45,866 nucleotides of DNA. Source: Anaeromyxobacter sp. (GTDB taxonomy: Bacteria; Myxococcota; Myxococcia; Myxococcales; Anaeromyxobacteraceae). The notes under the pieces are model-generated. The model made no database searches, was not told where the DNA came from, and worked only from the letters and a program-made list of their open reading frames with translations. Below are positions 2,999 to 31,110 of this stretch, piece by piece (position 1 is the stretch's first letter; each line of letters begins with the position of its first letter). The position numbers and the translations under genes were made by a program. The DNA lies in contig JANYBC010000164.1 in the NCBI GenBank assembly GCA_025360965.1, forward strand, positions 1 through 45,866, in the 5' to 3' direction.

Positions 2999-5230
2999 CT
3001 ACTTCGAGAGCTGCTCCTTCAAGAACCCGAGCGACCGCTCCCAGAGCCGCGCCACGTAGGCCGGGTCGCCCGAGGCCTGGGCCAGGTGGGTCATGCCGGG
3101 GAGGGTGAGCAGCTCGAAGCGCTTGCCGGAGCGCAGCAGGGCGTCGGCCAGCTTGAGCGAGTTGAAGTAGTAGACGTTGTCGTCGGCGGTGCCGTGGATG
3201 ATCAGGAGCGGCCGCTCCAGCTTCGGGGCCCAGGTGAGCAGCGAGGAGCGCCGGTAGGCCTCCGGCTGCTCGGCGGGCAAGCCGAGGTAGCGCTCGGTGT
3301 AGGCGGTGTCGTAGTCGCCCCAGTCGACCACCGGGGCCCCGGCCACCGCCGCCTTGAAGAGCTCCGGGTAGCGCATCACCGCCATGGCCGCGAGGTAGCC
3401 GCCGAAGGACCAGCCCTCCACGCCGACGCGGGTCAGGTCGAGCTCGGGGACCATGGCGCCGAGCGCCTTCAGGGCCGCCACCTGGTCCTCGAGCGCCGGC
3501 CCGGCGAAGTCGCCGCGGATGGCCCGCTCCCAGTCGCGCCCGCGCCGGGGAGTGCCGCGGCCGTCGATGGTGACGTGGATGAACCCCTGGTCGGCGATCC
3601 ACTGGGCCAGGTGGTCGGGGCGGGTGCCGACCAGCTGCAGGTGCGGACCGCCGTAGACCGAGAGGTAGACCGGCAGCTTCTGGCCAGGCCTGGCGCTGCG
3701 GGGCCTGATCACCGAGGCGTAGAAGCCCGGGGCCGGCCCGACCTTGTAGAGCTCGGTCCTCGGCTCGAAGGGGGGCCTCTCGGCCACCGAGGGGAGCTCG
3801 GCCAGCCGGCGGCCATCGACCCGGTAGGCGGTCGGGCTCGAGCTGGCGTTCATGGTGGAGCGGGTCACCAGCAGGGCCTCGCCGTTGCGGGAGAGCTGGG
3901 CGCTGGTCGAGACCGGAACCACCGGGGCCAGCCACTCCTCCGGCGCCGCCCCGTCCTTGACCACGTAGAGCCGGGTCTGCGTCGGCTCGGGGCCCCCGGT
4001 GAACCAGAGCCAGCGCCGCTTCTCGTCGTAGCCGACCAGGGCGGCCAGGCCGGCGCTCCCGGTGATCCAGATCGAGGCCTGCGAGCCGTCGGGCCGGTGC
4101 AGCGAGACCTCCGGCCAGCCGCTCCGCTCGGAGAGCCAGAAGAAGCCCGAGCCGTCCTCCTTCCAGCGCGGGTAGCTTTGCACCAGGTTGACCCAGGCCG
4201 CGTCCCTCTCGGTGAGCAGCAGCCGGGTGGCGCCGGTGGCCGGGTCGGCGGTGAGCAGCGCCAGGGCGTCCTGCGTCCGGTTGAGGACCACCAGCGAGAG
4301 CGGCGCCCCCTCGGTCCAGCGCACCGCGCCCAGGTAGGGGTACCGCTCGCGGTCCCAGCTGACCCAGACCGGTGGGCCGCCGGCCACCGGTGAGACCGCC
4401 AGCCGGACCGTGGCGTTGGCCTGGCCGGCGCGCGGGTAGCGGAAGGTGTCGGCCGGGCGCTCGGGGTGGAGCGGATCGTGGATGGTGAACTTCTCCACGG
4501 CGCGCTGGTCGGTCTCCTGCCAGGCCACCAGCCTCGAGTCGGGGGACCACCAGGCGCCGGTGAAGCGCCCCAGCTCCTCCTGGGCGGCGAACTCGGCCTC
4601 ACCGTGCGGGACCTCCTCGGTGCCGCCGCTGGTCAGGGGCCGCTCCAGGTTGCTGGCGAGGTCGAGCAGGCGCAGGTCGTGATCGACCACGTAGGAGAGG
4701 GTCGAGCCGTCGGGCGAGAAGTGCAGGTCGGTGGGGCGCCCGCCCGGCTTGAGCGGGGTGATGGCGCCACTGGCGCGGTCGACCAGGTAGAGCTTGCCCC
4801 CCACCGTCACCGCCAGCCGCCTGCCGTCGCGGGAGAGCTCGAAGGCGGTGATGCCGCGGGTGGTGATCCGCTGCCGCTCCAGCCGCGCCCGCTCGTCGGC
4901 GGTCAGGGCGGCGGCGCCGCCGGCCAGGAGCTGCTCGGCGGTGGCCAGCTCGCGGGTCTCCCCGGTCTTGAGGTCGGTGGCGTAGAGGGCCGAGACCGGC
5001 GAGCGGGGCGGGGAGCGCAGGAAGAGCGCGGCGTCGCCCTCGGGCGTAAGCACCGCGCGCGCGGGTCGGCCTGCGCTGAAGCGGCGGGTCTCGAGGTAGC
5101 GCTTCAGGAACGGCTCGGCCTCGACGGCGGTGGCGGCGGCAGTGGCGGTGGCGGTGGCGGCGCCGGGCGGGGCAGCGGCTGGCGTGGCGGCCGTGGCGGC
5201 GAGGAGGAGGGGGGCGAGCAGGGCGAGCAT
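2999..5230 (-). CDS. S9 family prolyl oligopeptidase (dipeptidyl-peptidase IV type), exported
   Basis: 743-residue secreted serine peptidase. An N-terminal signal peptide (MLALLAPLLLAATAAT) is followed by a beta-propeller region to about residue 480, with WD-like segments such as GWPEVSLHRPDG, and a C-terminal alpha/beta-hydrolase domain. The nucleophile motif GWSFGGYLAAM places Ser at about residue 608. The acid lies in HGTADDNVYY (residues 683-684) and the base in MTHLAQ near residue 715, giving the expected Ser-Asp-His order. Family members remove N-terminal dipeptides, often Xaa-Pro, in the periplasm. The length matches DPP IV-like bacterial enzymes. It is monocistronic, with its own start 26 bp after the preceding minus-strand gene. 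The Ala/Thr-rich stretch after the signal peptide is low complexity. Confidence 0.93.
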   Translation of the reverse strand: MLALLAPLLLAATAATPAAAPPGAATATATAAATAVEAEPFLKRYLETRRFSAGRPARAVLTPEGDAALFLRSPPRSPVSALYATDLKTGETRELATAEQLLAGGAAALTADERARLERQRITTRGITAFELSRDGRRLAVTVGGKLYLVDRASGAITPLKPGGRPTDLHFSPDGSTLSYVVDHDLRLLDLASNLERPLTSGGTEEVPHGEAEFAAQEELGRFTGAWWSPDSRLVAWQETDQRAVEKFTIHDPLHPERPADTFRYPRAGQANATVRLAVSPVAGGPPVWVSWDRERYPYLGAVRWTEGAPLSLVVLNRTQDALALLTADPATGATRLLLTERDAAWVNLVQSYPRWKEDGSGFFWLSERSGWPEVSLHRPDGSQASIWITGSAGLAALVGYDEKRRWLWFTGGPEPTQTRLYVVKDGAAPEEWLAPVVPVSTSAQLSRNGEALLVTRSTMNASSSPTAYRVDGRRLAELPSVAERPPFEPRTELYKVGPAPGFYASVIRPRSARPGQKLPVYLSVYGGPHLQLVGTRPDHLAQWIADQGFIHVTIDGRGTPRRGRDWERAIRGDFAGPALEDQVAALKALGAMVPELDLTRVGVEGWSFGGYLAAMAVMRYPELFKAAVAGAPVVDWGDYDTAYTERYLGLPAEQPEAYRRSSLLTWAPKLERPLLIIHGTADDNVYYFNSLKLADALLRSGKRFELLTLPGMTHLAQASGDPAYVARLWERSLGFLKEQLSK

Positions 5231-28748: not shown

Positions 28749-28821
28749 GGGCGCGTAGCTCAACTGGCAGAGCAATGGACTCTTAATCCATAGGTTGAAG
28801 GTTCGATTCCTTCCGCGCTCA
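28749..28821 (+). tRNA. tRNA-Lys (CTT), integration site
   Basis: Acceptor GGGCGCG/CGCGCTC (one G-T pair), anticodon stem ATGGA/TCCAT around loop CTCTTAA (anticodon CTT) and discriminator A. Its 3' half from the anticodon arm onward is duplicated 2189 bp downstream, marking it as the attachment gene of an integrated element. Confidence 0.92.
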
Positions 28822-28877
28822 CACAAGCAGGACCGAAGAACTCGAGGGCCCCCTGGACAACCAGCGGGGCCCTTCGT
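28778..28877 (+). repeat. Left direct repeat (attL-like), 100 bp
   Basis: Starts at the anticodon arm of tRNA-Lys, covers the T-arm, the 3' end and the downstream hairpin. It is identical to 30967-31066 at 99 of 100 positions (only 28860 differs). Confidence 0.9.
28846..28872 (+). terminator. tRNA-Lys terminator hairpin
   Basis: GGGCCCC-CTGG-ACAA-CCAG-C-GGGGCCC folds into an 11-bp stem with one bulge, 24 nt after the tRNA end, followed by TTCGTTCGTTCTC. The same hairpin (loop ACAT) recurs at 31035-31061. Confidence 0.5.
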
Positions 28878-29024
28878 TCGTTCTCTCCCCACACGAGAAG
28901 AAGGGGGTAGGGGATCTCCTTCGAATCCAGCGGGAAGGACATCTCCAAGGGTCCCTGCAGGCTGTGGCCAGCCACGCGGAACCAAAGGTTCTAGTCATTA
29001 CAGGCATTTATGCCGATCCGCCCT

Positions 29025-29048
29025 GTAAGGTAAAGGAGATTACCTTAC
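29025..29048 (+). promoter_or_regulatory. Perfect inverted repeat with Shine-Dalgarno in the loop
   Basis: GTAAGGTAA-AGGAGA-TTACCTTAC: 9-bp arms and a 6-nt spacer carrying AGGAG, ending 9 nt before the ATPase ATG. It could be a repressor operator or an RNA hairpin presenting or masking the ribosome site. A smaller palindrome GGCAT-TT-ATGCC lies at 29003-29014. Confidence 0.5.
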
Positions 29049-29057
29049 GGTTGCGCC

Positions 29058-30536
29058 ATGCCTTGGGGCTTCTACGGCCGGAACGACGAGCTCAACCGCC
29101 TCCAGGCGATCCTGGCGCGCAACCGTTGGTACTTCGTCAAGGTCACCGGGCGCCGGCGCATCGGCAAGACCGCCCTCATCCAGCGCGCACTCCAGAGCGG
29201 CCAGCGGGTCTTCTACGTCCAGGTCCCCGACTCCGGGCCGGTGGGCGTGCTCTCCGCCGTGGCCGACCAGATGGATACCTTCGAGATCCCGGCCTCCGAC
29301 TTCCCGAGGCCGCGGTCCCTCCCGGAACTGGCGAAGCTCGTCGGCAACCTGGCGCGGGCCGGGTACGCCGTGGCGCTCGACGAGTTCCAGTATTTCAACC
29401 GCGAACGGCTGCGGGACTTCTGCTCCCTCCTCCAGGCCGAGGTGGACCTGCTCTCGGCCCGGGCCTCGCGCGTACCCGGCGGTCTCCTCGTGCTCGGCTC
29501 CATCCACACGGAGATGGCGGCGCTGCTCCAGGAGCGCAACGCTCCCCTCTACAACCGGACGACCGACGAGTTGGAGCTTGGCCACCTCGATGTGGCGTCG
29601 GTGCTCGAGATACTGGATCAGCACGCGACGGTCGAGCCCGAGCGGCTGCTCTTCCTCTGGTCCCTCTTCGAGGGGGTCCCGAAGTTCTACAGGGACTGCT
29701 TCGAGCAGGGCGTGCTGGGCAAGCCGCGTCGCGACCTGCTGGAGAAGGCGTTCTTCGCCTCCTCGTCGCCGCTGCGCACCGAGGCGGACAACTGGTTCCT
29801 CAAGGAGCTGCACGGCAGGTACGACGTCATCCTCAAGTTCGTGGCGCGCAGGCCCGGCTGCACAAATGGCGAACTGCTGGACCACGTCCGGCAGATGAGC
29901 GCGGACACCAAGGAGCAGGTTGGCGGCTACCTGAAGGTCCTCATAGAGAAGTACCGGATCATCGAGAAGCGGCTACCCATCTTCGCCAGGAAGACGCAGC
30001 GGCAAGGGCGCTACTACCTCACCGACAACTTCCTCCGCGCCTGGCTGGCTGCGCTCGCTTCGCCGGTCTCGGCCATGGCGTTCCGGCCGCTGGAACTCGT
30101 CGTGCGCCAGGCCGACGAGCGGCTCGCCGACGTGGAGGGGCCGGCGCTGGAGAAACTGGTGGGCACGCTCTACGAGGAGCGGAGCCGCAAGGGGATCGGC
30201 GACTTCGGCCTCACGGAGCGCGTCCAGGGCTACTGGGACCGCGCCGACACCGAGATCGACCTCGTTGCGGTCGCTGGGGAAGACCACGTCCTGCGGCTGG
30301 TGACCTGCAAGCGGTCGCCCGAGAAGCTGGTGGCCGACCTGCCGCGCTTCGACGGCCACATCACCAGGTTCGTGAGCGCCTCGCCGAAGTTCGGGGGGTG
30401 GAAGATCGAAAAGGTCGCCGTGTCGCCTGTGCTCGATCAGTCGGCCCGCCGGCGCATCGGGGAGCGCGGGTATGTCGCCCAGGACCTGGCCGATCTCACG
30501 GCCGGCCTCCGCGGCCACGGAAGGGGTGCGACGTGA
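29058..30536 (+). CDS. Archaeal-type AAA ATPase with C-terminal DUF234 nuclease-like domain
   Basis: 492-residue cytoplasmic protein. Residues ~1-240 form an ATPase_2-type P-loop domain: FYGRNDELNRLQAIL, TGRRRIGKTALIQRAL (Walker A, Lys37) and AVALDEFQYF (Walker B, sensor region near 115). The middle has a winged-helix-like segment (KFVARRPGCTNGELLDHV to GRYYLTDNFLRAWLAAL). Residues ~330-470 resemble DUF234, a PD-(D/E)xK nuclease fold, with RADTEIDLVAV (Asp401) and LVTCKRS (Lys418). The usual Glu of the ExK pair is Thr here. Such proteins are frequent in thermophilic archaea and scattered in bacteria, and their role is unknown, with mobile or defence functions suspected. It is the only intact gene in the tRNA-Lys element and has its own unusual hairpin leader. 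Confidence 0.85.
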   Translation: MPWGFYGRNDELNRLQAILARNRWYFVKVTGRRRIGKTALIQRALQSGQRVFYVQVPDSGPVGVLSAVADQMDTFEIPASDFPRPRSLPELAKLVGNLARAGYAVALDEFQYFNRERLRDFCSLLQAEVDLLSARASRVPGGLLVLGSIHTEMAALLQERNAPLYNRTTDELELGHLDVASVLEILDQHATVEPERLLFLWSLFEGVPKFYRDCFEQGVLGKPRRDLLEKAFFASSSPLRTEADNWFLKELHGRYDVILKFVARRPGCTNGELLDHVRQMSADTKEQVGGYLKVLIEKYRIIEKRLPIFARKTQRQGRYYLTDNFLRAWLAALASPVSAMAFRPLELVVRQADERLADVEGPALEKLVGTLYEERSRKGIGDFGLTERVQGYWDRADTEIDLVAVAGEDHVLRLVTCKRSPEKLVADLPRFDGHITRFVSASPKFGGWKIEKVAVSPVLDQSARRRIGERGYVAQDLADLTAGLRGHGRGAT

Positions 30537-30785: not shown

Positions 30786-30968
30786 CCAGGTAAGGGCCAG
30801 TTCGGCAAGGTCGCTGCTCGAGCGACCGAGCTCATGGCCGCAGGCAAGTGCGGAGCAGCGACTGAAGCTTGGAAGGTTGCGGTGAAGAGCGAGTTCCCAG
30901 GGAAGACGGCCGCCCAGAAGAAGTCATCGCTACGGGACGACGTTGAAGTCCCAGCTGGCCTGGCCTGA
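30786..30968 (+). pseudogene. Startless small ORF ending at the right repeat
   Basis: An open frame without a start codon reads GQFGKVAARATELMAAGKCG, then AATEAWKVAVKSEFPGKTAA, and ends in QKKSSLRDDVEVPAGLA with its TGA formed at the repeat boundary. The AW-x2-A-x4-FP-x3-A-xKK pattern resembles small DUF6979-like proteins truncated by the att sequence, a weak guess. A GTG with a nearby GGAGG (30782) is in another frame, suggesting a one-base indel at the N-terminus. Confidence 0.4.
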
Positions 30969-31010
30969 CTCTTAATCCATAGGTTGAAGGTTCGATTCCT
31001 TCCGCGCTCA
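30967..31010 (+). pseudogene. tRNA-Lys 3'-half remnant (attR side)
   Basis: 44 nt identical to tRNA-Lys from the anticodon arm to the discriminator base. It has no 5' half, so it cannot be a functional tRNA. Confidence 0.85.
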
Positions 31011-31066
31011 CACAAGCAGGACCGAAGAACTCGAGGGCCCCCTGGACATCCAGCGGGGCCCTTCGT
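30967..31066 (+). repeat. Right direct repeat (attR-like), 100 bp
   Basis: Second copy of 28778-28877, including the terminator hairpin at 31035-31061. Identity decays beyond 31066, defining the edge. Confidence 0.9.
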
Positions 31067-31110
31067 GCGTCCTCCCCCAGGAGGCCCTCCAGCGACATAG
31101 GCGCGGCATG

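Follow-up and report, generated by a model that had tools for sequence, protein, structure and literature searches.

PDC-S27, one of the most frequent unvalidated defence candidates, is described in the accessible text of PMC12988326 as a fusion of an ATPase with a PD-(D/E)XK member, with counts of 3503 in archaea and 4562 in bacteria; validation is said there to be pending for most such PADLOC candidates, and a promoter dyad is not mentioned in that part of the paper. A system with a similar principle of control is the RptR restriction-modification island (PMC12255303, accessible part), in which a repressor at promoter palindromes keeps the defence genes down, and in which regulator and site are conserved together; the arrangement proposed below would be alike in both respects.

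The locus analyzed here lies in the window, a stretch of 45,866 nucleotides from Anaeromyxobacter sp., and is centered on one gene:

29058..30536, + strand: ATPase gene, 492 aa, PADLOC PDC-S27 (AAA+, winged helix, PD-(D/E)XK-like/DUF234)
29817..30026, + strand: winged helix, about residues 254-323 in the AlphaFold2 model; proposed reader of the dyad
30210..30509, + strand: PD-(D/E)XK-like domain, about residues 385-484; D401 and K418 kept, canonical Glu 416 replaced

PDC-S27 comprises PDLC04985 and PDLC04984, and the window protein matches the former over nearly its whole length (residues 2-483 of 492, 694 bits, 2.8e-209); all 57 aligned relatives match as well. The Pfam signatures of AAA+ and DUF234 are mostly just under their cut-offs, with AAA_22 just above. 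The initial annotation had spoken of a defence-like gene, and the PDC-S27 match supports this as far as candidacy goes. The domain limits are our own reading of an AlphaFold2 model built from 57 sequences (mean pLDDT 88.4, pTM 0.86), in which the AAA+ part takes up about residues 1-190. The best solved structural matches are PABY2304 (2qen; VIA-align Z 18.8, rmsd 3.7, 306 aligned) and SSO1545 (2fna; Z 17.9, rmsd 3.6, 303 aligned); in Foldseek, PABY2304 is followed by ORC/Cdc6 proteins, and TnsC and MuB rank lower. In the nuclease-like part D401 is present in 55 and K418 in 56 of 57 proteins, while the Glu of the ExK motif at position 416 is replaced by Ser (39), Thr (17) or Asn (1) throughout this branch of PDC-S27, leaving the motif incomplete. 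E399 is invariant (57/57) and might stand in for the lost catalytic Glu. The loss, within residues 399-418 (window 30252-30311), applies to this branch; the sister proteins of PDLC04984 retain the Glu in 29 of 29 cases.

Just before the ATPase start lies an inverted repeat:

29025..29048, no strand: inverted repeat, very probably a dyad operator; arms 29025-29033 and 29040-29048

Its arms, GTAAGGTAA and TTACCTTAC, are perfectly complementary. AGGAGA forms the dyad centre (29034-29039) and the 22-bp core spans 29026-29047; the single AGGAG within 28890-29057 sits at 29034-29038, and GC content is 43% across 29022-29051 against 72% for the window. A perfect 9-bp repeat in an AT-rich island, with the only AGGAG of the leader in its loop, is what the initial annotation had reported, and all three points were confirmed. 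As a bare hairpin, the repeat is unremarkable and not beyond chance expectation. The window holds five perfect 9-bp arms with loops of 3-10 nt, and the mean of 12 shuffles is 5.3; the local fold at the dyad is an 11-pair stem with z = -0.89 relative to shuffled sequence; and in Rfam the dyad has no match above the gathering score, the only matches of the window being four tRNAs. The sole odd property of the bare hairpin is its AT-rich composition (arms with at least six A/T of nine occur at one site in the window and at none in the 12 shuffles), and what truly sets the repeat apart is its conservation.

When genome contigs were searched with the protein, 62 relatives came up, with 41-90% identity over the best segment; they belong to Myxococcota, Planctomycetota, Cyanobacteria, Pseudomonadota, Bdellovibrio and other groups. 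Three loci without a usable start (L010, L050, L063) were excluded, so that the analyzed set consists of 59 loci and the window. The same dyad does stand before homologous ATPase genes, where the initial annotation had proposed to look for it: 42 of these 60 loci, from several phyla, score at least 14/16 against TAAGRTAA-N6/7-TTAYCTTA no more than 160 bp upstream of the gene, with the reservation that this consensus was derived from the scored loci themselves and favours their scores. Shuffles of the same upstream DNA give mean scores from 8.6 to 11.2, and in 51 of 60 loci the observed score is matched by at most one shuffle in 100. A symmetry score blind to the consensus is 9 or higher at 25 of the 60 loci; among 215 other genes from these loci, 14 attain it. 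The arms vary jointly, for example GTAAGTTAAAA/TTTTAACTTAC in L007 and TAGCATAAAA/TTTTATGCTA in L049. A group of Planctomycete and Bdellovibrio loci has a spacing of 7 nt, several of them with two tandem dyads; three loci (L026, L051, L059) have weak dyads only, and L033 has a different one. With the 200 bp before the gene set aside, no more than four dyads scoring at least 14/16 remain in the 590,887 bases scanned. In L014, a second tandem pair of the same dyads (5183-5230) lies 256 and 281 bp past the end of the ATPase gene. We found no recognised description of the operator in the literature on DUF234 ATPases, STAND/MNS (a classification reportedly due to Leipe, Koonin and Aravind in 2004), PDC-S27, antiphage autorepression, and phage operators or decoys.

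The dyad occupies a fixed position relative to putative promoter elements. With L062 left out of the counts (its upstream DNA is identical to that of L002), TTG begins at offset -18 from the left arm in 24 of 55 loci and at any other offset in five at most; for TT the figures are 35 loci at -18 and at most 11 elsewhere. If the spacer is 17 bp, the -10 element (TAAAAA, TAAAGT and similar) is provided by the left arm. In the window this phase gives two further features:

29008..29013, + strand: weak -35-like hexamer TTATGC, beginning 18 bp before the 22-bp core
29031..29036, + strand: predicted -10 hexamer TAAAGG, within the dyad; 17-bp spacer to the -35

The window promoter, TTATGC-17-TAAAGG, would thus be a weak one with a poor -35, and a consensus promoter scan at the window found no promoter. 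Its transcript is predicted from sequence to start near 29043. Among the loci with 6-nt spacing, the predicted leader is at most 20 nt in 30 of 37, with a median of 16; in six loci, the best-scoring dyad implies a leader of more than 60 nt. The ATPase ATG is at 29058, the first in-frame stop upstream is the TAA at 29031-29033, and no further in-frame ATG, GTG or TTG lies between the two.

These data bear on the proposal that the repeat acts as an RNA hairpin which presents or hides a Shine-Dalgarno sequence. The 11-pair stem does fold in the window, but with the z-score given above it is not exceptional, and since the -35-like TTG is in fixed phase with the dyad, transcription should start inside the right arm, leaving no RNA hairpin. 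The loop is not conserved: AGGAG is found there in one of 59 loci, the window alone, and there it precedes the ATG by 19 nt, farther than is normal for a ribosome binding site. Mismatches in the arms show no G-U bias either (19 G-U vs 21 A-C among 448 arm positions in 56 dyads). Conservation, spacing, the G-U comparison and the predicted start thus led us to reject the hairpin, whose probability we put close to nil, and RNA-level control in general is very unlikely. The initial annotation had offered a choice between a dyad operator and RNA-level control: the operator part held, the dyad being conserved, in fixed phase with the -35, free of G-U bias and in most tested genomes the only such site (see below), and the Shine-Dalgarno part did not, its AGGAG lying upstream of the predicted start and recurring in no other locus.

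We favour, with reasonable though not firm confidence, an operator that overlaps the -10 element of the ATPase promoter, is bound by a dimer and mediates autorepression. That the dyad is an operator is very probable in itself, and autorepression by the ATPase is likely. A dimer would bind the two half-sites, most likely via the ATPase's own winged-helix domain, and would block RNA polymerase, so that the candidate defence protein would hold its own level low. Derepression would follow entry of the gene into a naive cell, or withdrawal of the protein from the promoter. The start of transcription would fall in the right arm or immediately behind it, and the resulting leader, some 15 nt long, would lack a Shine-Dalgarno sequence.

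The distribution of the dyad within genomes suggests who may read it. In the 3.83-Mb genome of the window it was found once at up to three mismatches. Among 20 other genome entries searched at up to two mismatches, 15 had a match and 13 (12 genomes, as G182 and G198 look identical) had it in front of the ATPase, this being the sole match in 11 of the 13; extra sites were found in one Planctomycete (one further) and one Bacteroidetes genome (six). Two genomes had an unrelated site alone. In the five genomes without a match, the ATPase dyad is off-pattern or has the other spacing. An adjacent regulator gene was considered as the reader and rejected: an all-against-all comparison of flanking ORFs found no neighbour family in more than five loci among the 25 largest clusters, and the large clusters represent four cyanobacterial loci of common context. 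The reader should thus travel with the ATPase gene, which itself encodes a winged helix.

The sister subfamily PDLC04984 (30 loci, L208-L237, with L229 excluded for an internal stop codon and a contig end) shows gene-specific dyads of its own. Most sister genes are preceded by a dyad of their own or by repeated half-sites, and an inverted-repeat score of at least 9 within 100 bp upstream is found for 23 of 29 vs 14 of 215 control genes of the main loci. Paralogues of one genome differ in their dyads (L218 vs L233 in G003; L211 vs L227 in G175), which argues against one host repressor. The L227 half-site occurs exactly in G175 solely at that promoter, in two copies.

We also compared domain identities with the site by partial Mantel tests, the other domains being removed. 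Winged-helix identity correlates with the half-site (r 0.17, 1/500 permutations) and with half-site spacing (0.30, 0/500), and so do the linker with the half-site (0.18, 4/500) and the AAA domain with spacing (0.16, 0/500); the change in spacing probably happened once, in one clade. In the sister set, upstream similarity follows the AAA domain (0.24, 0/500) ahead of the winged helix (0.12, 6/500). The tests are thus consistent with reading by the winged helix, but not cleanly. ORC/Cdc6 proteins use both AAA+ and winged helix to read DNA, so the correlation with the AAA domain does not contradict self-binding. The dyad could instead be the operator of an unlinked host repressor, not of the ATPase; the correlation of linker and AAA domains with the site leaves some room for this, but the same dyad follows the gene across several phyla without a common neighbour, most tested genomes have no second copy, and paralogues in one genome carry different dyads. 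We therefore regard a host repressor as decidedly improbable.

The genomic setting of the window gene is local in character:

28778..28889, + strand: left copy of a 112-bp direct repeat (96% identity), covering the 3' portion of tRNA-Lys and adjoining downstream bases
30967..31078, + strand: right copy of the 112-bp direct repeat; the two copies bracket the ATPase
30789..30968, + strand: small ORF similar to the DUF6979 N-terminal part, 0.3 bits under the Pfam cut-off

The ATPase segment has the look of a 2.2-kb element integrated at a tRNA gene; no integrase was seen among the ORFs. A related genome (G053, L247 2762-2875) has, after the same tRNA-Lys, 114 bp left over from the 3' end of this ATPase. 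tRNA insertion was dismissed as a trait of the gene at large: a scan of the 60 loci showed tRNA genes in 3, none of them arranged as in the window, which makes the tRNA-Lys setting a local one. The position of the gene between repeats at a tRNA gene would suit a recombination site (Xer/dif-like or an element end), as would some dyad variants, TAACATAA-N6-TTATGTTA, which resemble one arm of the bacterial dif site. However, the dyad lies outside the repeats and its promoter phase is fixed, and the scarcity of dyads away from the promoter means that a partner site at the other end is generally missing. A recombination site is accordingly very hard to credit.

Elsewhere the gene can keep company with defence genes. 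It lies in BREX loci between BrxC and PglX (L038, 1439-10050) and between PglX and PglZ (L018, 458-9304); the cyanobacterial ATPase genes are inside an apparent BREX operon and could be co-transcribed with it, which counts against the preferred reading. In L047 it adjoins PDC-S01 genes, and on a plasmid of Synechococcus elongatus UTEX 3055 a homologue (WP_126148346.1) stands beside Abi and restriction genes, with the upstream dyad TAAGATAA-AAATAA-TTATCTAA. Of 40 neighbour proteins picked, 20 from 10 loci were tested: eight from three loci had strong PADLOC matches, one in L009 had a weaker restriction-enzyme match, and the other 11 had no PADLOC match at 1e-10. Carriage of the PDC-S27 gene by phages or plasmids was rejected, as it was found in none of 50,697 phage records at 1e-20 and in four of 72,556 plasmids at 1e-40.

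The ideal 22-bp palindrome, TAAGRTAAAANNTTTTAYCTTA, occurs in 63 IMG/VR stretches that represent 34 distinct contexts, while control palindromes occur there zero times (reversed pattern), once (one-base-pair change) and twice (scrambled). Examples are found in unrelated phage contigs (L110 1852-1873, L095 4133-4154, L148 3232-3253). The GC content of the flanks ranges from 24 to 63%. The inner 16-mer alone has 116 viral sites, 15 of them with TAA and TTA on both sides; symmetry fades beyond TAA/TTA, so the viral site has sharp limits at 22 bp. Five viral stretches contain the form with 7-nt spacing, and at least 120 contain a loose 22-mer (8-bp arms, 6-nt free centre). Open frames of at least 120 codons contain 33 of the 63 ideal sites. 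In one such case, a phage helicase gene, five of 20 relatives at least 80% identical have a perfect site and the remaining 15 have at most five of ten symmetric pairs, an all-or-none pattern; an inserted cassette was rejected as its cause, the closest of four annotated helicases being of the same length and the other three off by two residues. In bacterial genome sets the ideal site was found in 0 of 398, 1 of 193 and 0 of 340 (the first and last sets overlap), which are probably a far smaller body of DNA than the viral set, so that rates set side by side do not settle the matter, and the matched palindromes serve as the sounder control.

Several explanations of the viral sites were tried and rejected. 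They do not look like promoters, TTG being at -18 in 2 of 68 flanks; they are not due to a common phage gene, the largest ORF cluster covering 4 of 34 contexts; and a distant PDC-S27 homologue is not responsible, as hmmsearch found none in the viral stretches with the ideal site and tblastn no relative in the 120 stretches listed for the loose 22-mer. The viral occurrences are therefore not fully accounted for by the explanations tried. A tentative reading, which we consider rather doubtful, is that TAAGRTAAAANNTTTTAYCTTA is the recognition site of PDC-S27 and that unrelated phages have repeatedly acquired it, in coding and non-coding DNA, as a counter-defence decoy, which would keep the ATPase operator-bound or in its self state. 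Operator copies in unrelated phage genomes may thus be part of an arms race, and such a decoy, if real, would be a counter-defence made of DNA and not of protein. No long match to the ideal site was found in named phages (50,697 records, best 17 bases) or in 72,556 plasmids, and this absence counts against the decoy being general.

The viral sites also bear on the possibility that the dyad serves the ATPase for docking or self-marking, much like an ORC/Cdc6-type origin box, with transcription control secondary. Ideal sites in phage DNA without a promoter signature would fit this, as does the rank of ORC/Cdc6 proteins directly after PABY2304 among the Foldseek matches; the strict -35 phase, however, is expected for promoter control and not for docking alone, and we consider docking unlikely as the main function.

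Under the preferred reading, an autorepressing operator, a one-gene system would travel with its operator and so bring along the means of its control; this would account for the movement between phyla of an ATPase that may be harmful. The dyad also offers a short DNA duplex as a binding target, and an inducing condition to seek.

Among solved structures, ORC/Cdc6, PABY2304 (2qen) and SSO1545 (2fna) are alike in having AAA+ followed by a winged helix; their matches stop near residue 334, and the PD-(D/E)XK-like part of the window protein lies outside them. With respect to regulation, RptR is, in the accessible part of PMC12255303, a separate small regulator, whereas the ATPase loci share no common regulator gene and the part would be played by the effector's own winged helix.
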